The translations under genes were made by a program, and so were the position numbers. From contig JAAFHT010000002.1 in NCBI GenBank assembly GCA_013297625.1, positions 1-51,193 on the forward strand: a DNA stretch of 51,193 nucleotides. The letters are read 5' to 3'. Below are positions 24,005-32,939 of the stretch, piece by piece. The stretch's first letter is position 1; every line of letters starts with the position of its first letter. This DNA comes from Actinomycetota bacterium (lineage in GTDB: Bacteria; Actinomycetota; Actinomycetes; Actinomycetales; Microbacteriaceae). Below the pieces are notes generated by a model. That model saw only the letters and a list, made by a program, of their open reading frames with translations. It did no database searches and was not told the origin of the DNA.

Positions 24005-24125
24005 GGTCAAGGGGAGTATTCCTTCGAAGTCGACTCGTCAGTACGAACACGCAATCGTGTTCCGGGCGGCTTGGCCCTGTTCGCGGGCCGGAAGAGACCT
24101 TGGTCAATCTTTGCTGACCAAGGAG
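24005..24125 (+). ncRNA. yybP-ykoY (manganese) riboswitch with ribosome-site switch
   Basis: The leader has the two hallmarks of this class: GGGGAGTA near the 5' end (24011-24018) and GAGACCTT near the 3' end (24095-24101), with hairpins between. P1 pairs GGTCAAGG (24005-24012) with CCTTGGTC (24098-24105). The same 3' strand can instead pair as CCTTGGTCA with TGACCAAGG (24115-24123), a perfect 9-bp hairpin that buries the ribosome binding site AAGGAG (24120-24125). The two structures exclude each other, so metal binding that holds P1 should free the site and turn terC on. Class and target fit known Mn2+ sensors of TerC/Alx proteins. Confidence 0.88.
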
Positions 24126-24130
24126 CACCC

Positions 24131-25150
24131 ATGGGTGTCACACCCCTCATCTGGATCATCACCATCGCGGTCACGATCGCCTTCTTCATCTGGGAGTTCT
24201 ACGCCCACGTGCGTACGCCCCACGAGCCCTCCATCGCCGAAGCGGCCAAGTGGTCGGTGTTCTACATCACGCTTGCCCTGATCTTCGGTGTGGGCATCGG
24301 AGTGGTGTCGGGGTGGCAGTTCGGCGGTGAGTATTTCGCCGGGTACCTGACCGAGAAAGCGCTGTCGGTCGACAACGTCTTCGTCTTTTTGCTCATCATG
24401 ACCGCGTTCGCGGTGCCCAAGATGTATCAGCAGAAGGTGCTGTTGATCGGCATCGCGATCGCCCTCATCATGCGGGGAATCTTCATTGCGGTGGGCGCAA
24501 CGCTCATCTCCAACTTCTCGTGGATCTTCTACATCTTTGGTGCCCTGCTGCTCATACTCGCGTACCGCCAAGCCTTTGGCTCGCACGAGACCGACCCGCA
24601 GAACATCGGCATCGTCAAGTTCGCCCGTCGGCACCTGCCGTTCGTTGACAAGTATCACGGTGACAAGCTCTCGGTGAAGATCGACGGCAAGCGGTTCTTC
24701 ACCCCCATGCTGCTCGTGATCGTGGCCATTGGCTTTGTCGACCTCATCTTTGCGGTCGACTCGATTCCGGCGATCTACGGTCTGACCGAAGAGGCCTACA
24801 TCGTTTTCACCGCGAACGCTTTCGCGCTGATGGGTCTGCGCCAGCTCTACTTCTTGATCGGCGGACTGCTCGAACGACTCATCTACCTCGCTCAGGGGCT
24901 CGCCATCATTCTCGCGTTCATCGGTCTCAAGCTCATCTCGCACGCCCTCAAGATCAACGAGTTGCCCTTCATCAACGGCGGCGAGCCGGTCAAGTGGGTT
25001 CCCGAGATTCCTATCTGGTTCTCGCTCGGCTTCATCGCCACGACGATCACCGTTGCGACGGTGCTGAGCCTGCTGAAGACGCGCAAGAACGCTCTCGTGG
25101 CGGATGCCGCTGCCGAGAGCGCCGCGAACGAGAAGAGCGACAAGCACTAA
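24131..25150 (+). CDS. TerC family integral membrane protein (Alx-like, likely Mn2+ exporter)
   Basis: 339 residues with about nine membrane segments. Conserved acidic residues are in LTEKALSVDNVFVFLLI and in VDLIFAVDSIPAIYGLT, both TerC hallmarks. The ATG at 24131 has AAGGAG placed 5 bases upstream, and this site is under control of the yybP-ykoY riboswitch. Alx/TerC proteins export manganese or help metallation of secreted proteins, and the riboswitch supports manganese as the signal. A bidirectional terminator follows. Confidence 0.93.
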   Translation: MGVTPLIWIITIAVTIAFFIWEFYAHVRTPHEPSIAEAAKWSVFYITLALIFGVGIGVVSGWQFGGEYFAGYLTEKALSVDNVFVFLLIMTAFAVPKMYQQKVLLIGIAIALIMRGIFIAVGATLISNFSWIFYIFGALLLILAYRQAFGSHETDPQNIGIVKFARRHLPFVDKYHGDKLSVKIDGKRFFTPMLLVIVAIGFVDLIFAVDSIPAIYGLTEEAYIVFTANAFALMGLRQLYFLIGGLLERLIYLAQGLAIILAFIGLKLISHALKINELPFINGGEPVKWVPEIPIWFSLGFIATTITVATVLSLLKTRKNALVADAAAESAANEKSDKH

Positions 25151-25198: not shown

Positions 25199-26197
25199 CT
25201 AGCTCCAGTGCGGGTAGTGCGCCTCGACGACGTTGGGGTGCGAGCGCACGCGGCTCTTGAGCCAGTTGACGCCGAATACCGGGTGGAGTGGATTGCTCGG
25301 GTCGCGGGTAACTCCCGCGGCCTCAGCCGCGAGCTCGGCGGGAAGGTCGATCGTCGGAATCTCGGCGTCGAGCGCGGGCCCGAAGAAGAACGGCACCGAG
25401 ATGCGCTCGTCACCCGCTGCGGGTGACTGCACGCGGTGCAAGGTGGCCTTGAGGTAGCCGTTCGTCGCGATCTCGAGCAGCTCACCGATGTTGACGACGA
25501 AGGCGCCCGGTACCGGCGGGGCGTCGATCCACTCGCCGTCTTTCTCGACCTGCAGGCCGCCCTTGCCGTCTTCGACATAGAGCAGTGTCAGCACGCCCAG
25601 GTCTTTGTGAGCGCCCACACCTTGCGTGCCCTCGGTGCGCTCGCGCCCCGGGTAGCGCGCAATCTTGAGGTGCGGTGACGCGTTGCCCGCGAAGGCCGCG
25701 TCGAAAGTGTCAGCAGGGGCCCCGAGCGCCTCGGCCCACGACCGCAGCAGGGTCACGCTGATTTCGCCGAGTCGGTCCATCCAGTCCACGGTCACGTCTC
25801 GCAGCGCCGGCAACTCGGCGGGCCAGAGGTTGGGGCCCTCGAGCGCCCAGAAGTCGGGCACTCCGTCGCCGAGCGGCACAGCATCCCGTTCAGCACCGAT
25901 GTCGATCTGTTCGCGCCAGTCGGTGGCGCCTTGCGTCAGCTCGCCGCCCATGCGGGTGTAGCCGCGAAAGTGCGGGCTGTGGGTGTTCTCGATGGCGAGC
26001 TTGGCCTCGACGGGCAGCGCGAAGAATGCGCGCGCCGTGGCCATCATGCGGTCGAAGAACTCGGGCGGCAGGCCGTGGCCCACGAGGTAGAAGAAGCCGA
26101 TCTCGTGCGTGGCGCGGCGAAGCTCGTCGCGAAAGCGAGCGGCGTCGTCGTCGGTGCCGGCGAGGAGCGAGAGGTCGAGGATGGGAAGCGTGCGCAT
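25199..26197 (-). CDS. 2-oxoglutarate/Fe(II)-dependent oxygenase, isopenicillin N synthase family
   Basis: 332 residues. The N-terminal DIOX_N domain begins LPILDLSLL and contains EIGFFYLVGHGLP; the catalytic 2OG-FeII domain has the iron triad H-D (VGAHKDLGVLTLLY) and H (LHRVQSP), and the co-substrate motif RxS (ERISVPFFF). Members of this family oxidise small metabolites; the substrate is unknown here, and no beta-lactam genes are present. I chose the ATG at 26197, which has AGGA upstream and gives the family length. Upstream on the same transcript lies a five-cysteine mini-gene, so expression is probably tied to cysteine supply. Confidence 0.88.
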   Translation of the reverse strand: MRTLPILDLSLLAGTDDDAARFRDELRRATHEIGFFYLVGHGLPPEFFDRMMATARAFFALPVEAKLAIENTHSPHFRGYTRMGGELTQGATDWREQIDIGAERDAVPLGDGVPDFWALEGPNLWPAELPALRDVTVDWMDRLGEISVTLLRSWAEALGAPADTFDAAFAGNASPHLKIARYPGRERTEGTQGVGAHKDLGVLTLLYVEDGKGGLQVEKDGEWIDAPPVPGAFVVNIGELLEIATNGYLKATLHRVQSPAAGDERISVPFFFGPALDAEIPTIDLPAELAAEAAGVTRDPSNPLHPVFGVNWLKSRVRSHPNVVEAHYPHWS

Positions 26198-26224
26198 GAG
26201 GTTTGTCCTGTTCGTCTGAAGGTG

Positions 26225-26289
26225 GTTGTCGGGGCGGGCGCGAAGAAGGCGCACCGGATAACTAGTTCGCAGAAGGAACTAGCGACAAC
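26225..26289 (-). promoter_or_regulatory. Attenuator-like RNA structure downstream of the poly-Cys codons
   Basis: On the transcript, CTAGTTC (26282-26276), which contains the mini-gene stop, pairs with GAACTAG (26268-26262). The preceding GTTGTCG (26289-26283), part of the Cys codons, can pair with CGACAAC (26231-26225), about 16 nt before the AGGA site of the oxygenase gene. A ribosome sitting on the cysteine codons would break both helices. Confidence 0.55.
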
Positions 26290-26314
26290 AGCAACAACAG
26301 AGCAGCGCATTCAT
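26279..26314 (-). CDS. Poly-cysteine leader peptide (11 residues)
   Basis: The reading frame encodes MNALLCCCCCR and stops 81 bases before the oxygenase start, on the same strand. Five consecutive Cys codons (TGT and TGC) are extremely improbable by chance in this codon context. Its start lies 9 nt after TATGGT, so it is the first thing translated on the transcript. Short leaderless poly-Cys reading frames are known in mycobacteria to act as cysteine-responsive attenuators of downstream genes. The peptide itself probably has no function; its translation speed is the signal. Confidence 0.75.
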   Translation of the reverse strand: MNALLCCCCCR

Positions 26315-26323
26315 GATGGCTCG

Positions 26324-26350
26324 ACCATAGCAAATCTCTTCACCGATCAA
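26324..26350 (-). promoter_or_regulatory. Promoter of the poly-Cys leader and oxygenase
   Basis: On the minus strand TTGATC (26350-26345) and TATGGT (26329-26324), the latter preceded by an extended TGC, are separated by 15 bases. The leader peptide ATG follows the -10 box by 9 nt. Confidence 0.6.
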
Positions 26351-26437
26351 AACTCGCGATCGCGGCGCGGTCTGGCCGCTCAGCGCTCGTTCGACAGTCG
26401 TCGAGGCGGCGCACCGGCGGCGCTCAGCATTGAGGTC

Positions 26438-26443
26438 TACGGT
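26438..26443 (+). promoter_or_regulatory. Leaderless -10 box of the glutathione peroxidase gene
   Basis: TACGGT ends 6 nt before the GTG at 26450. Confidence 0.55.
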
Positions 26444-26449
26444 CAAATA

Positions 26450-26935
26450 GTGACGACGCTGACGGATGCACCCCTCACGATGCTCGACGGCCGCGAAACC
26501 TCGTTCGCCGAGTTCGCGGGCCGGGTAGTTCTCGTCGTCAACGTGGCCTCCCGCTGTGGGCTTGCACCGCAATACGCCGCGCTCGAAGCACTGCAGAAGA
26601 CCTACGGCGACCGCGGATTCACCGTGCTCGGCGTTCCCTCGAACCAGTTTCTGCAAGAGCTATCGAGCGAAGAGAAGATCGCCGAATACTGCAGCACGAC
26701 CTGGGGCGTGACCTTTCCGATGACCGAAAAGTCGAAGGTCAATGGCAAGAAGCGTCACCCGCTTTATGTCGAGCTCGTGCAGGCACCCGATGAGCACGGC
26801 GCGGCCGGGCCCGTCACCTGGAACTTCGAGAAGTTTCTCGTGCTGCCGAGCGGCGAGGTGCGCCGCTTCCGCCCTAACGTGAGGCCCGACGCGCCCGAGA
26901 TCGTGGCGCTCATTGAGGCGAACCTGCCCGCGTAA
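26450..26935 (+). CDS. Glutathione peroxidase family protein (thiol peroxidase)
   Basis: 161-residue cysteine-type GPx that reduces hydroperoxides, in actinobacteria usually with thioredoxin as donor. The peroxidatic Cys36 is in NVASRCGLAPQY; the catalytic partners are in VPSNQF (Gln) and TWNFEKFLV (Trp, Asn); a second cysteine near residue 85 (AEYCST) may be the resolving one. An open frame extends far upstream, but the GTG at 26450 gives the family length and has a leaderless promoter box. It is divergently arranged with the oxygenase and its Cys leader. Confidence 0.93.
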   Translation: MTTLTDAPLTMLDGRETSFAEFAGRVVLVVNVASRCGLAPQYAALEALQKTYGDRGFTVLGVPSNQFLQELSSEEKIAEYCSTTWGVTFPMTEKSKVNGKKRHPLYVELVQAPDEHGAAGPVTWNFEKFLVLPSGEVRRFRPNVRPDAPEIVALIEANLPA

Positions 26936-27089: not shown

Positions 27090-30000
27090 TTGTCGATACT
27101 CGCTCAATCTCGCTCCTTCGGATTCACGATGGCGGCTTTTGTCGCCACCACGGCGGTGATCGGCAGCCTGTTCGTCGGCAGTGCCTCGTCGGCGACTCCC
27201 GTTCCTGAGGCGCCCGTTGCAAGCTCGGCGATCGGCGGCACCGTTACGGATGCGGACACGGGAGTCGGGCTCGCCGGCATCACGGTGTCGATCGTCTCTG
27301 AGCCGACCGCGGAAGAGAGTGCTTCGCGTTCGATCACCTCGGCGAGTGACGGCACCTACTCGTTCGCCGGTCTCGAAACCGGCCTCTACACTCTCGAATT
27401 CGTTGATCACTCGGGCGTGTTTGCGCCCGCATCGCGGGGCCCGCTCGTGCTGGAGGCCGGACTCGCGATGACCGAAGACGTCGCCTTGAGTGCGACCGAG
27501 CCGCGGACGATTTCGGTCGCCGTTCCGGATGCGTCGACCTACTCGCTGACCGGAACCGTGACGTCGGAAGGAGTGCCGGTACAAGGCGTGATCGTGCGCG
27601 TTTTTGACGCGGAATTCTCCAGGTCGCACCAAGGCGTTACCGACGAAAACGGCAACTACTCGGTTACCGACATTGAAGGCTCAAGCGTCTCGGTCAGCAC
27701 CGATGCCACCGAGATCTACCAGGCGCATCTCGAAACTGTTTCTCTCACTCTGGGCGGAACCGTCTACGACTTCACCCTCAACCGTGTGCCGACTGGCTCG
27801 GGCTCTATCTCTGGGGTCATCCTTGACCGCGCTACAGGCAACCCGATCGTCGGTGCCTCAGTGCTGTTGAGCGGCATTGATGAAGGAGCGTTTGGGGTGA
27901 CGCGCTCCACCACCTCTGACGAGAACGGAGCGTATGCGTTCGGGAGCCTGCCGTTGGCGTCGTTCGAGATTCGTGCTGACCGGGTCGACTCTTCAGATAC
28001 CGGCATCACCGAGTACTCCCCGTCGAGCGTTTTTGTCTTGCTCAGTGAGTCACGCCAGAGTCGAGTGCGTGACGTGCGTCTCGATGCCGTGCCGACCGGC
28101 TCGGGTGTCATCGCGGGGTGTGTCACTGAGACAGACTCGACCCCCATTCCGGACCTCACCCTGTTCGTCGCGGAAGTGCAGCTTGGCCCATCGTCGCCTC
28201 GGAGCTTGAGCGTGACGACAGATTCGACGGGGTGCTACTCACTCGGCGAGCTAACTGCCGGCACGTTTGAGATCCGCTACTCTTCCGTCGCTCCGATCTA
28301 TACCGGTATCGATCCCGCCGAGTCACTCGTGACGCTCGACACGGATTCATCGACCGTCGAGAAGAACCTCGTTCTCGCGCGGTATCCGATCGGCACCGGG
28401 ATTCTGGAGGGATCCCTTACTGACACGCGAACGGGCCTGCCCATCGAGGGTGTCGGCGTGCGCTTGATTTCACTCGCATATCAAGATCGCACTCTGAATG
28501 CCACCACTGACGTGGACGGGCGGTGGTCGTTTTCCGACCTCGCAGAAGGTGACTATGTCTATCTGCTAGTCGACGAGAGCAATCGCTTCGAGACTTCTCT
28601 AGAGCCCTCGCCGGTCGTGTCGATCGCCGACGGTGCCACGGTTGTGCGCGTCGACACTCTGACCTCGGTGGTCGCCGGAACGGGCTCGCTATCGGGCCGC
28701 GTTCGTGATGCCGAGACCCATGCGGGAATCGCCGGTGCCGACATTTTGCTGAGCCGTGAGCGTGGGGGCTATCTCGTCGCACCGGTCGTGCCCGATGAGA
28801 ACGGCGACTACAGTGTCGAGGAACTTCCGGCCGGTCGATACTGGGTGCTTGCGACCGCGCCGGGATACTTCTCGGTCGAGACGCCCATTGAGATCGGCGC
28901 AGGTGCAGAAACGCTCAATCTTCCGCTGCGAGTGGACACGCCGCTCGGTGATGGAGATGGCGTCATCAGGGGTGTTGTGACAAATCCCCTGGGTGAACCG
29001 ATCTATCGGGCATCAGTGAACGCTTCTTCGCTGAATAGCGATGGCCGGTACACCTATCGTTACGTGCTGACGGATGCTGATGGTGTCTTCGAGATGAGCG
29101 GGCTTGCTGTTGGCGAGTGGGACGTCACGATAGGCGGCGACTCGTTCGAGACCGCACCGGCAGACCTGACCGTCACTCTCACGGCCCTTGATCCCGTGGT
29201 CGAGCTTGATGTGGTGCTCGGCGCCGCGAACATGATCACGGGTTTTATCGACCTGAGCACGGTGCCGACAGACGGCACGTATGGTCTTGAGCTCCTTGTT
29301 TTCGATGCCGCAACCGGTGCGATTCGGGGGTGGGGCTCGATCAACTTAGTCACGGGCACCTACTTCACGACGGCACTCGCTGATGGTGAGTACGTGGTTA
29401 TGCTGCGCACAAGCAATGCGTTCCTCGACCCCGGCGCTTTCTCTGTATCGCCCGCATTCTGGGTGGCTTCAGTGCCCACGGGTTCAGCCAACTTCGATGA
29501 GGCAAGCGTCATCGCTCTGTCAGGCGGGGAGGTCGTCTCTGGAGTTGACTTCAGCGTGAGTCAGGGTGCGTCGATCTCTGGTCGCGTGTCCGTCGCGACT
29601 GCCGATGCGGTTGTCGACCTCGCGCCTGGCACGATCGTGGAGGTTGTCGCTTATCGCCGTGCGGGCGACACTTGGATGCTAGTGCCCCTCTTGAATGACA
29701 TCGTCTCGAGCTACTCAGACGGCGAGTACAGCCTCGTTGGCCTCAGCCCGGGAGACTACCGACTGGAGTTCTACGACTACTACGGGGGCGATCGAGCGCT
29801 CGCCACGACCTACAACGGTGGCGGCACGGTCTTCGACGAGGCGCCGATCATCACGGTCGGAGAGGGCGATCAGCTCACGGGGCGCGATGTGGTGATGTCG
29901 GTTCCGCGACCCGCTGTCCCGCCGTCGACACTCGTCCTCGATGACCTTGGCGATGACATCAATGGGTTTGAAGGTCAAATCGGTATTCCGAGCAATCCCA

Positions 30001-30518
30001 CGGAAGGCGACACCGTGACGATCACCATCGACGACGAGTTCGCCGGTGAGTGGGTCTCGGTGTGGGCCAACTCGGCACCCACACGCATCGGCGACTGGGC
30101 GCGGGTCACCGCGAACGGCACGGTTGCGGTGACGTTGCCTGCCGGGCTGGTCGGTGCGCACCGAATCGCGGTACAAGACGCCGAGGGCATGCTCGTCGGC
30201 TGGGCCCCGGTGACAATCGCTCGCAAGTCAACCGTCACCGATCCTGGCGCGGGCGCGGGGGCGCCACGAGTGAACGCGCCGACGACGAATCAGCCAGCAG
30301 TGGTCGATGCACCGGCGAGCGTGCTGCCGACAACATCCGATAACGAAGTTGACGCTGGAGACGGCACCGAGGAATCTCCCGAGGCGACCGAGCCAACGGC
30401 GACGCGTGACGAGTCGGGTGCCGGAGCCGACGCGTGGATCTGGATCCCCGTCGCAGGAGGGCTACTCGTGCTGCTGGTTGCCGGCGTCATCGTCGGCGTC
30501 CGGCGTCGAACCGCGTAG
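27090..30518 (+). CDS. Large surface protein with nine Cna_B/carboxypeptidase-regulatory-like repeats
   Basis: 1142 residues. A signal peptide (about 1-36, ending GSASSA) is followed by nine repeats of roughly 90-110 residues starting near 48, 153, 240, 339, 437, 533, 624, 715 and 828. Most begin with a strand such as ISGVILDRATGNPIVGASV and contain DENGAYAF/GSYSFAGL-type turns. A distinct beta domain (about 940-1035), a Thr/Pro/Ala-rich linker and a membrane helix with RRR end the protein. There is no LPXTG, so it is anchored by the helix. The start is TTG with GAGAGG placed 8 bases upstream; ATG 27129 would cut the signal peptide. Third-position GC looks lower than in its neighbours. It is a likely stalk or adhesin. 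Confidence 0.85.
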   Translation: MSILAQSRSFGFTMAAFVATTAVIGSLFVGSASSATPVPEAPVASSAIGGTVTDADTGVGLAGITVSIVSEPTAEESASRSITSASDGTYSFAGLETGLYTLEFVDHSGVFAPASRGPLVLEAGLAMTEDVALSATEPRTISVAVPDASTYSLTGTVTSEGVPVQGVIVRVFDAEFSRSHQGVTDENGNYSVTDIEGSSVSVSTDATEIYQAHLETVSLTLGGTVYDFTLNRVPTGSGSISGVILDRATGNPIVGASVLLSGIDEGAFGVTRSTTSDENGAYAFGSLPLASFEIRADRVDSSDTGITEYSPSSVFVLLSESRQSRVRDVRLDAVPTGSGVIAGCVTETDSTPIPDLTLFVAEVQLGPSSPRSLSVTTDSTGCYSLGELTAGTFEIRYSSVAPIYTGIDPAESLVTLDTDSSTVEKNLVLARYPIGTGILEGSLTDTRTGLPIEGVGVRLISLAYQDRTLNATTDVDGRWSFSDLAEGDYVYLLVDESNRFETSLEPSPVVSIADGATVVRVDTLTSVVAGTGSLSGRVRDAETHAGIAGADILLSRERGGYLVAPVVPDENGDYSVEELPAGRYWVLATAPGYFSVETPIEIGAGAETLNLPLRVDTPLGDGDGVIRGVVTNPLGEPIYRASVNASSLNSDGRYTYRYVLTDADGVFEMSGLAVGEWDVTIGGDSFETAPADLTVTLTALDPVVELDVVLGAANMITGFIDLSTVPTDGTYGLELLVFDAATGAIRGWGSINLVTGTYFTTALADGEYVVMLRTSNAFLDPGAFSVSPAFWVASVPTGSANFDEASVIALSGGEVVSGVDFSVSQGASISGRVSVATADAVVDLAPGTIVEVVAYRRAGDTWMLVPLLNDIVSSYSDGEYSLVGLSPGDYRLEFYDYYGGDRALATTYNGGGTVFDEAPIITVGEGDQLTGRDVVMSVPRPAVPPSTLVLDDLGDDINGFEGQIGIPSNPTEGDTVTITIDDEFAGEWVSVWANSAPTRIGDWARVTANGTVAVTLPAGLVGAHRIAVQDAEGMLVGWAPVTIARKSTVTDPGAGAGAPRVNAPTTNQPAVVDAPASVLPTTSDNEVDAGDGTEESPEATEPTATRDESGAGADAWIWIPVAGGLLVLLVAGVIVGVRRRTA

Positions 30519-31307: not shown

Positions 31308-32939
31308 CTATTCGGCGAGCGCCAGATACTGGTGAGCGTAGGCAATGACCATGCCGCCTTCGCCAACGCCGGCCGCGACTCTCTTGACAGAGCCCGAGCG
31401 CACGTCTCCCGCGGCGAAAACGCCGGGCACTGCCGTCTCGAGAGCGAAGGGTTCGCGCTGTTCTTCCCACAACCCGGCAGCTTTCGCGTGAAGGCCGGTC
31501 AGAATGAAGCCATGGTCATCTCGAGCGATTTCGGGCGGAAGCCACGTTGTTTCGGCATCAGCGCCGATCATGACAAAGACAACTGTGGCTTCTCGTCGGC
31601 TGGTTATGCCCGTGTTCTTGTCGAGAATGTCGATGAACTCGAGGTCTTCGGGTCCTTCGAGGCCGACCACTTCTGAGCGAGTCTGCACCGTGATAGTCGG
31701 GTTCGCGGTGATCTGCTCGATCAAATACGTCGACATGCTTGCCGTCAGCGATTCACCGCGAACGATGAGCGTGACCGATGTGCAGTGTCGTGCGAAGAAC
31801 AGTGCGGCCTGCCCAGCAGAGTTGCCGGCGCCGATGATGAAGACGTCGCGACCGTGAGCGAGACCCGAGTCACTGCGGGCCGCGCCGTAGTAGACGCCAT
31901 TGCCCACGAAGCGATCGATGTCGGGGATGTTCACGCGCCGCCACTCGACGCCCGACGTGATGACCACGATCTGCGCAGCGACCTCTTCGCCGCCATCGAG
32001 TGTGACGGTGGGTGCGAATGGGTTCATGTGTTCGACGGCGCGGGTGACGACGACTTCTGCGCCGAGCCGTTGCGCTTGACGGAGGGCTTTCGCGGCAAGG
32101 TCGTCACCCGAGATCCCGAACGGAAAGCCCGTGTAGTTCTCGATGCGGGTTGACGTGCCCGCCTGCCCGCCGGGGGCGACGCGCTCGACGACAAGTGTGC
32201 TCAAGCCCTCGGCGGCAGCGTTCACGGCGGCGGTCAGCCCCGTCGGGCCGCCGCCCACGATGATGACGTCGTACGACTCGCGTTCGGGAAACACCGACAG
32301 CCCACCCGCCAGTGCGATCTCTCGCACCGTGGGCGCGAGCAAGCGGCCGCCGTTGCTTAACTCGATCACCGGTACGTCGTCGCTTCGGCGGTCGAGATGC
32401 TCAGGGGCATCAGTGTTGATGGTCTCGAATCGGATGCGATTGCGGTTGAGAAAGGTGCGCACGCCATGCACGCGAGGGTCGACGAGCGGGCCGATCACGG
32501 TCATGTCAGGCGCGGTCATCTCGGACGCGATTTCTTTGAGCCCCTCCACCCGCCGCATGGCCGTGGCTCCGACCGTCGCGGCCACGTGCGGGGCCATCGA
32601 GGCCAACGCGAAGAACGAGCCAGCATCCATGCGCAGTACGCGTGATGTTTCAGAGGCCCGAAGGCTTGCGGGCAGCTGGGTGCTGAGCATCATCGGCACT
32701 TCGCCGTAGACCTGGCCGGGCATCCGAGGGCCAATGACGCGCTCGATGCCATGCACGTCTTTCGTCAGCTCGGCGGCGCCCGCCATGACGATAAACAGCG
32801 CACGGTCGTCGCCCTCCCGCGCCGCATACTCGCCGGGCTGCAGGTGGATGTCTTCAACAGCCCGCGCGACGAATGCCAATTGTTCGTCGGTGAGGTCGGA
32901 GAACAGCGGAACTTCGGTCAATTCACCGGGGGTAATCAC
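31308..32939 (-). CDS. Cyclic-nucleotide-binding domain fused to a thioredoxin-reductase-like flavoprotein
   Basis: 543 residues. Residues about 1-130 form a cNMP-binding beta barrel (QVYGEVPMMLSTQLPASLRA as the cassette). Residues about 140-215 are a thioredoxin-fold-like segment without cysteines (GVRTFLNRNRIRFETINTD). The rest is a class II flavoreductase: FAD motif IIVGGGPTGLTAAVNAAAEG, NADPH motif VFIIGAGNSAGQAAL and the late motif GVFAAGDVRSGSVKRVA. Where thioredoxin reductases have CxxC, this has AARSDS, so it cannot pass electrons through a redox disulfide. It probably reduces another partner. GTG start with GGAG upstream. Confidence 0.88.
   Translation of the reverse strand: MITPGELTEVPLFSDLTDEQLAFVARAVEDIHLQPGEYAAREGDDRALFIVMAGAAELTKDVHGIERVIGPRMPGQVYGEVPMMLSTQLPASLRASETSRVLRMDAGSFFALASMAPHVAATVGATAMRRVEGLKEIASEMTAPDMTVIGPLVDPRVHGVRTFLNRNRIRFETINTDAPEHLDRRSDDVPVIELSNGGRLLAPTVREIALAGGLSVFPERESYDVIIVGGGPTGLTAAVNAAAEGLSTLVVERVAPGGQAGTSTRIENYTGFPFGISGDDLAAKALRQAQRLGAEVVVTRAVEHMNPFAPTVTLDGGEEVAAQIVVITSGVEWRRVNIPDIDRFVGNGVYYGAARSDSGLAHGRDVFIIGAGNSAGQAALFFARHCTSVTLIVRGESLTASMSTYLIEQITANPTITVQTRSEVVGLEGPEDLEFIDILDKNTGITSRREATVVFVMIGADAETTWLPPEIARDDHGFILTGLHAKAAGLWEEQREPFALETAVPGVFAAGDVRSGSVKRVAAGVGEGGMVIAYAHQYLALAE

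Follow-up and report, generated by a model that had tools for sequence, protein, structure and literature searches.

On the minus strand of the window (i.e., the whole analyzed stretch of DNA, 51,193 nucleotides long), an 11-codon reading frame, MNALLCCCCCR (26314-26279, stop codon TAG at 26281-26279), ends 81 nt before the ATG (26197) of a gene for an oxygenase with DIOX_N and 2OG-FeII_Oxy domains. A promoter-like box precedes this frame, a hairpin (P3) encloses its stop codon, and a second hairpin (P4) stands between P3 and the heptamer CGACAAC, which in turn lies ~15 nt upstream of AGGA, the probable ribosome site of the oxygenase. The features are as follows.

26324-26332, minus strand: extended -10 box TGC-TATGGT, 9 nt before the leader start codon
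26279-26314, minus strand: leader ORF MNALLCCCCCR, ATG at 26314-26312, stop TAG, probably leaderless
26284-26297, minus strand: Cys codons, whose predicted partner in the optimal fold is the ribosome-site stretch 26216-26203
26283-26289, minus strand: GTTGTCG, last Cys and Arg codons, 5' arm of the alternative helix P2 with CGACAAC (sequence and folding)
26276-26282, minus strand: CTAGTTC, 5' arm of the stop-codon hairpin P3 (sequence and folding)
26262-26268, minus strand: GAACTAG, 3' arm of P3 (sequence and folding)
26249-26256, minus strand: CGGTGCGC, 5' arm of the second, GC-rich hairpin P4, with one bulged base (sequence and folding)
26235-26241, minus strand: GCGCCCG, 3' arm of P4 (sequence and folding)
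26225-26231, minus strand: CGACAAC, 3' arm of P2, complementary to the last Cys and Arg codons (pairing probability 0.2-0.38)
26206-26209, minus strand: AGGA, probable ribosome site of the oxygenase (predicted pairing with leader bases, 0.6-0.8)
25199-26197, minus strand: oxygenase, 332 aa, DIOX_N and 2OG-FeII_Oxy domains, with HxD, H, and RxS kept

An earlier note on this DNA had described the frame, a few bases behind a TATGGT box and 81 nt ahead of the oxygenase, and had placed its stop codon in a 7-bp CTAGTTC/GAACTAG hairpin; both are present as described, and the stem is predicted with a probability of 0.99-1.0. A consensus scan of 26100-26400 gave neither a full sigma-70 promoter (no -35) nor a terminator, so the box call rests on its conservation among relatives. 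Judging from the spacing between box and start codon, the leader transcript is probably leaderless. Rfam covariance models run against 25900-26700 returned 0 matches up to an E-value of 10.

Frames of this kind are rare by chance. The window holds 344 start-to-stop frames that are 8-16 codons long, and the leader is the only one among them with at least three Cys in its last eight residues, and five consecutive TGY codons occur at two places in the 2.43-Mb genome (eight for the backward control pattern), one of the two being the leader. Codon choice is also distinctive, with TGT used for 116 of the 151 Cys codons in the 42 leaders listed below versus 12 of 73 in the 42 called genes of the window. 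The CGACAAC match is weak by itself, as 9% of shuffles do equally well or better, and the strong evidence for a real leader is its conservation.

Conservation of the leader

The window comes from an actinobacterium of the genus Microcella, and the set examined for this genus comprised 26 genomes, 20 of which hold an oxygenase ortholog of at least 72% identity (two of the 20 are cut, at the 5' end or by the contig), and all 20 orthologs follow a Cys-run leader behind a TANNNT box. The residues after the start codon drift (NALL, STLF, RLSS, SNQF, SRLL, and SIRL) and the Cys patterns vary (CCCCC, CCRCC, CRRCCC, CRCCC, and CLCC), with box, start, and Cys run constant. The earlier note had named, as one sign against its reading, close relatives that retain the oxygenase gene but have lost the Cys run; no such case was seen within Microcella. 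G204-G207, four further Microcella genomes of at least 99% completeness, have neither an ortholog nor a strong RNA-model match to the leader. In Agromyces, an ortholog of at least 69% identity was found in 20 of 60 genomes, each with an MSxxxCxCCRR leader, and in Promicromonospora, of another family, MSTFxCxCCRR, likewise behind a TANNNT box, precedes the oxygenase at 3/3 loci among the 80 nearest GTDB loci. As a side observation, G137 has a second match to the oxygenase (C1:2377152-2377319, L084), which is confined to the 60 C-terminal residues and stands 1.4 kb away from the intact gene.

We listed 42 leaders, i.e., the 20 from Microcella, the 20 from Agromyces, and two from the CBS operons described below. 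In all 42, TANNNT lies 9 or 10 nt before the start codon (preceded by TGC in 34), and three to five Cys stand shortly before the stop, with four codons after the last Cys in the L005 group. The number and order of Cys are variable (CCCCC, CCRCC, CRRCCC, CRCC, and CCC).

In a tree of 160 oxygenases, one clade of 45 rows (SH-aLRT 99) contains 44 that lie under a Cys leader, of which 41 have the leader directly and 3 sit in leader-bearing CBS operons; the last row, L008 (Ruicaihuangia), stands at the clade base and has no leader. None of the remaining 115 rows has one, and the leader may have a single origin. Within 450-500 nt upstream of the gene or ahead of a CBS neighbor, the Cys leader was absent from 51 of 58 family orthologs and from 69 of the 80 nearest GTDB loci, a search that a leader further up an unrecognized operon would escape. 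Most orthologs show neither a leader nor a sulfur neighbor.

The confinement of leader-bearing rows to one clade is what a chance short ORF, inherited through close kinship, would also produce. Against this stand the drift of the residues other than Cys and Arg while oxygenase identity falls to ~70% across genera, the persistence of the box, the start codon, and the run of Cys, a stem of 6 bp or more at the stop codon in 39 of 46 leaders, and the lack of any Cys-run decay in 20 Microcella and 20 Agromyces, and we find a chance ORF scarcely credible.

The leader on CBS-like-CGS operons

An RNA model was built from nine oxygenase leaders and two CBS leaders. In Microcella, 21 of 26 genomes gave a single match with E at or below 0.0035, located at the oxygenase or, for G211, at the end of a contig. 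Among 199 sampled Microbacteriaceae genomes, the model also matched at CBS-like genes of G046, G067, G083, and G146, two of which had trained the model. In G067 and G083, a tandem of CBS-like, cystathionine gamma-synthase/lyase (CGS), and oxygenase genes follows the leaders MNFSSTCCCL and MINTRLCCCCL, respectively, which share the CTAGTTC/GAACTAG hairpin. The second proteins of the tandems pass the gamma-synthase model (634 and 617 bits, cut-off 513), but the first proteins of the tandems just miss the NCBIfam CBS cut-off (483 and 480 versus 510 bits) and are for that reason called CBS-like here. Aurantimicrobium minutum has the same gene order behind the leader MITSRLCCCR. As a side observation, G046 (L157 and L176) carries a Cys leader ahead of CBS-like and CGS genes, and no oxygenase match was found in that genome.

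In the window genome itself, the model found no site besides the oxygenase leader, the CBS-CGS pair (on another contig) is without such a leader, and the 13 PLP-enzyme loci that made up the direct search showed no Cys leader by the criteria used. Weak model matches at L145-L147, L153, and L159-L162 were dropped for want of a leader-like frame (L160 has three frames with at least three Cys, none at the expected place), and L148-L152 were left out.

The enzyme and its gene neighborhoods

HxD...H and RxS are motifs of DIOX_N-type 2OG/Fe(II) oxygenases, and in nine aligned orthologs H197-x-D199, H254, and R265-x-S267 are invariant. By sequence and by fold, the closest solved chains are 9ovh (ancestral ethylene-forming enzyme) and 6jyv (P. 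aeruginosa), and the structure model (mean pLDDT 75) suffices for the fold only. The earlier note had pointed to the ACV-cyclizing isopenicillin N synthase, and such a thiol-peptide cyclase belongs to the same superfamily; the top Foldseek match, 6jyv, even carries the title isopenicillin N synthase from P. aeruginosa, as given by its depositors. Isopenicillin N synthase chains reach E 2e-13 at best, however, far below the two closest chains (E 1.3e-60 and 1.3e-54), an NCBIfam search of the oxygenase returned no family at E 0.001, and the informative neighbors are sulfur genes. That pointer is not borne out, and we regard an isopenicillin N synthase-like role as highly improbable.

The oxygenase of the window has no adjoining sulfur gene, and the neighborhoods of its relatives are informative in a minority of cases. 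In addition to the leader-bearing tandems, three Cryobacterium loci outside the leader clade carry cysK-cysE-oxygenase in tandem (in L221, TIGR01139 and TIGR01172 score above cut-off), and in G016, also outside, the oxygenase is followed by CBS-CGS. Among the 80 nearest GTDB loci, five have a CBS-, CGS-, or CysK-type gene within 6 kb; in four of them, a CBS/CysK-type gene precedes the oxygenase in tandem, and in L223 a distant CGS-family gene follows it. Neighbors in Microbacterium (FTR1, imelysin, and MFS) and Rhodococcus (PadR and inositol-phosphate synthase) offered no clear link. Separately, at Microbacterium loci among L202-L259, genes of the imelysin type (a cluster found in 19/80 loci) and the FTR1 type (10/80) frequently run divergent to the oxygenase, with domains read for L230 only.

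Homologs are also carried on plasmids (133 records in all; 43-55% identity among the matches listed, 40 of 133). Thirteen plasmid regions, chosen by genus, were viewed, three of which were without annotation, and 6 of the 10 annotated regions hold sulfur or methionine genes within 6 kb: methionine-type ABC transporters in Pantoea and Duffyella, a transsulfuration-type PLP enzyme with sulfonate-type genes in Azospirillum, Shinella, and Roseomonas, and flavin monooxygenases with tauA in Allorhizobium. Two cases are weaker (a methionine-synthase-like neighbor in Rhodococcus, and an amino-acid transporter with a sulfatase in Rhizobium NXC24), and the last two annotated regions showed no sulfur link. 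As a control, a 36% paralog of the same genome was used, and 0 of its four viewed plasmid regions (of 16 records, all four alphaproteobacterial) had a sulfur gene.

Because several oxygenase relatives lie among cysteine, methionine, and sulfur-uptake genes, a role in sulfur supply may be proposed. Comparison thus lends weight to the sulfur link that the earlier note had suspected for the oxygenase, through the leader-bearing tandems and through some relatives that lack the leader and lie with cysK-cysE, CBS-CGS, or sulfur-uptake genes. On the minority of informative neighborhoods together with the leader, the oxygenase is best seen as a sulfur-supply enzyme. Published accounts add little: a literature listing on PA4191 showed no sulfur link among the matches listed, the literature examined states no sulfur role for the 6jyv/9ovh group, and in the accessible part of a proteomics study of Rhodococcus IGTS8 (PMC8557817) we found no mention of such an oxygenase. 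In Yersinia pseudotuberculosis after H2O2, the accessible part of PMC8139631 reports that an oxygenase with this family name rises together with sulfate-assimilation genes.

Predicted RNA pairing

In the optimal fold of the window RNA (-40.8 kcal/mol), the Cys codons (26297-26284) pair with the stretch 26216-26203, which holds AGGA, at a probability of 0.6-0.8. The pairing of GTTGTCG with CGACAAC that the earlier note had put forward stands as complementarity but does not form in the main fold of the window, where it is a close second (probability 0.2-0.38; -39.7 kcal/mol when forced). Across relatives, the Cys codons were scored for complementarity to the RNA lying 33-72 nt downstream, with a mean of 22.6 for 17 representatives versus 15.3 +/- 0.8 in shuffled sequences (maximum 18.2 of 2000; dinucleotides were not kept). 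Cross-clade pairings score 20.0, near the 22.6 of own pairs, and, taken singly, just 10 of 42 leaders have a longest Cys-codon helix that beats shuffles (dinucleotides again not kept) at the 0.05 level or better.

The stop-codon hairpin scores 16.3 over 29 distinct regions versus 10.1 +/- 0.4 in shuffled sequences, and its stem re-pairs from clade to clade (CTAGTTC/GAACTAG, GCTAACG/CGTTAGC, GGTCGTC/GACGACC, GATCGTC/GACGATC, and GGTCGCC/GGCGACC). The seven leaders without a 6-bp stem are L005, L068-L071, L076, and L072, the last of which has a 6-bp stem with an 11-nt loop, past the 10-nt loop limit. Support for the hairpin comes from these clade-to-clade changes, as covariation in the 11-row alignment did not rise above shuffles (59-62 of 500), and consensus folding of 20 pooled leaders from several clades gave almost no structure. 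In every one of the 20 Agromyces, pairing of 7-9 bp joins the stretch around the start codon to the one just beyond it.

These pairings bear on whether the leader might make a short functional Cys-rich peptide (e.g., for metal or redox binding) and not serve as a codon sensor. Cys and Arg are the most constant leader residues, which such a peptide would explain, yet the count and order of Cys vary, similar leaders precede CBS-like-CGS tandems, and the Cys codons are complementary to downstream RNA. We consider a functional peptide very unlikely.

A proposed cysteine-responsive attenuator

We propose that the leader is a cysteine-responsive, ribosome-mediated attenuator placed before an oxygenase of sulfur acquisition or salvage, a reading to which we give a probability of roughly three in four. 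The pairing of the leader and its release are predicted by folding models; stalling, the direction of control, and the role of the enzyme we infer from the comparisons above. The earlier note had suggested such an attenuator, and the suggestion gains from the Cys run and box at 20/20 Microcella orthologs and from the leader on CBS-like-CGS-oxygenase tandems.

Under this proposal, ribosomes would start at, or a few bases from, the 5' end of the transcript, on the AUG or GUG of the leader. With ample cysteine, they would pass the Cys codons and leave, and the codons so freed would pair with downstream RNA, which in the window means chiefly the ribosome site of the oxygenase and alternatively CGACAAC, around P3 and P4; this would keep oxygenase expression low. 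With scarce cysteine, a ribosome would halt on the Cys codons, this pairing would not form, and the oxygenase would be made. The tiny cysteine-rich reading frame would thus probably act as a cysteine gauge, and the oxygenase may help these bacteria get sulfur when cysteine is scarce.

When a stall on the first Cys codon was simulated in the window RNA, the unpaired probability of the 11-nt ribosome-site stretch rose from 0.32 to 0.65. Among the 41 leaders scored, the simulated stall opened this stretch by at least 0.10 in 11, comprising 11/19 in Microcella, 0/20 in Agromyces, and 0/2 in CBS operons, with a few falling slightly. Since Agromyces and the CBS operons are unchanged on the simulated stall, freeing of the ribosome site was rejected as an output step common to all leaders; because only Microcella leaders open, it is a fair model for the window and not for all relatives.

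The output could instead be set by transcription attenuation, in which Rho would halt RNA polymerase within the leader or let it pass, depending on whether the ribosome has stalled or been released, and the ribosome site is not the switch. The 20 Agromyces loci fit this scheme, with a leader-to-gene gap of 195-230 nt and a ribosome site about unchanged on the simulated stall, and Rho-dependent control has been proposed for other actinobacterial cys leaders (PMC1262725, in its accessible part). The lack of a U-run terminator at 26100-26400, which makes an intrinsic terminator unlikely in the window, points the same way. In the window and the other short-gap Microcella, however, pairing of the Cys codons to the ribosome site is predicted, as is its release by a stall, and we judge Rho attenuation rather unlikely, preferring ribosome-mediated masking of the ribosome site for the window.

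A wider proposal, which we hold tentatively and at somewhat less than even odds, is that this uncharacterized group of non-heme iron oxygenases, with members in Actinobacteria and on plasmids of proteobacteria, serves sulfur salvage by releasing homocysteine, cysteine, or sulfide from an organosulfur compound, e.g., by oxidative S-dealkylation, and that in a single actinobacterial clade a dedicated gauge made of cysteine codons, common to the CBS-CGS operon of relatives, came to control it.

Relation to known Cys-run leaders

Polycysteine-encoding leaderless short ORFs have reportedly been shown in mycobacteria by Canestrari et al. in 2020. The leader described here resembles them as a short, probably leaderless Cys-run ORF before a putatively sulfur-linked gene, with a proposed ribosome-paced attenuation that would mask the ribosome site, and differs in its host families (Microbacteriaceae and Promicromonosporaceae), its lone oxygenase target, and its stop-codon hairpin, and in being known from sequence alone.

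Cys leader peptides have also been predicted before the cys operons of Mycobacterium and P. acnes and before cbs of B. longum (PMC1262725, in its accessible part). They share with ours the Cys codons near the stop, the position upstream of cys/cbs genes, and the lack of an intrinsic terminator, whereas the accessible part of that paper reports no conserved terminator hairpins and here a stop-codon hairpin recurs. In Rhodobacterales, uORFC-8-2 precedes cysS (PMC8632094, likewise as far as the accessible part goes); it too has Cys codons inside a stem and a proposed ribosome-mediated attenuation, but ends in an intrinsic terminator and belongs to another gene and another phylum.

By these likenesses, the leader would work as known Cys-run leaders do, and what appears new is which gene is targeted, in which families, and that a stop-codon hairpin recurs; a search of open-licence literature, in the parts visible to it, showed no pairing of such a leader with this oxygenase. 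The range of Cys-run leaders would thereby widen, in actinobacterial families as well as in the kind of gene that follows them, and a testable role, sulfur supply under cysteine shortage, is offered for an enzyme whose sole label is often "isopenicillin N synthase family oxygenase". More generally, a codon-run signal can hint at the function of an unassigned gene.

Other genes of the window

Divergent to the leader promoter lies a glutathione-peroxidase-like gene, contained in an ORF at 25931-26935 (plus strand) with the domain near its 3' half, and this nearby thiol peroxidase may or may not be connected with the leader and oxygenase. A TerC/Alx-type metal membrane protein (24071-25150, plus strand) is encoded convergently with the oxygenase. 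Further along, 27090-30518 (plus strand) encodes a large predicted protein with seven carboxypeptidase-regulatory-like repeats, and 31308-32939 (minus strand) a cyclic-nucleotide-binding domain fused to a thioredoxin-reductase-like FAD oxidoreductase.
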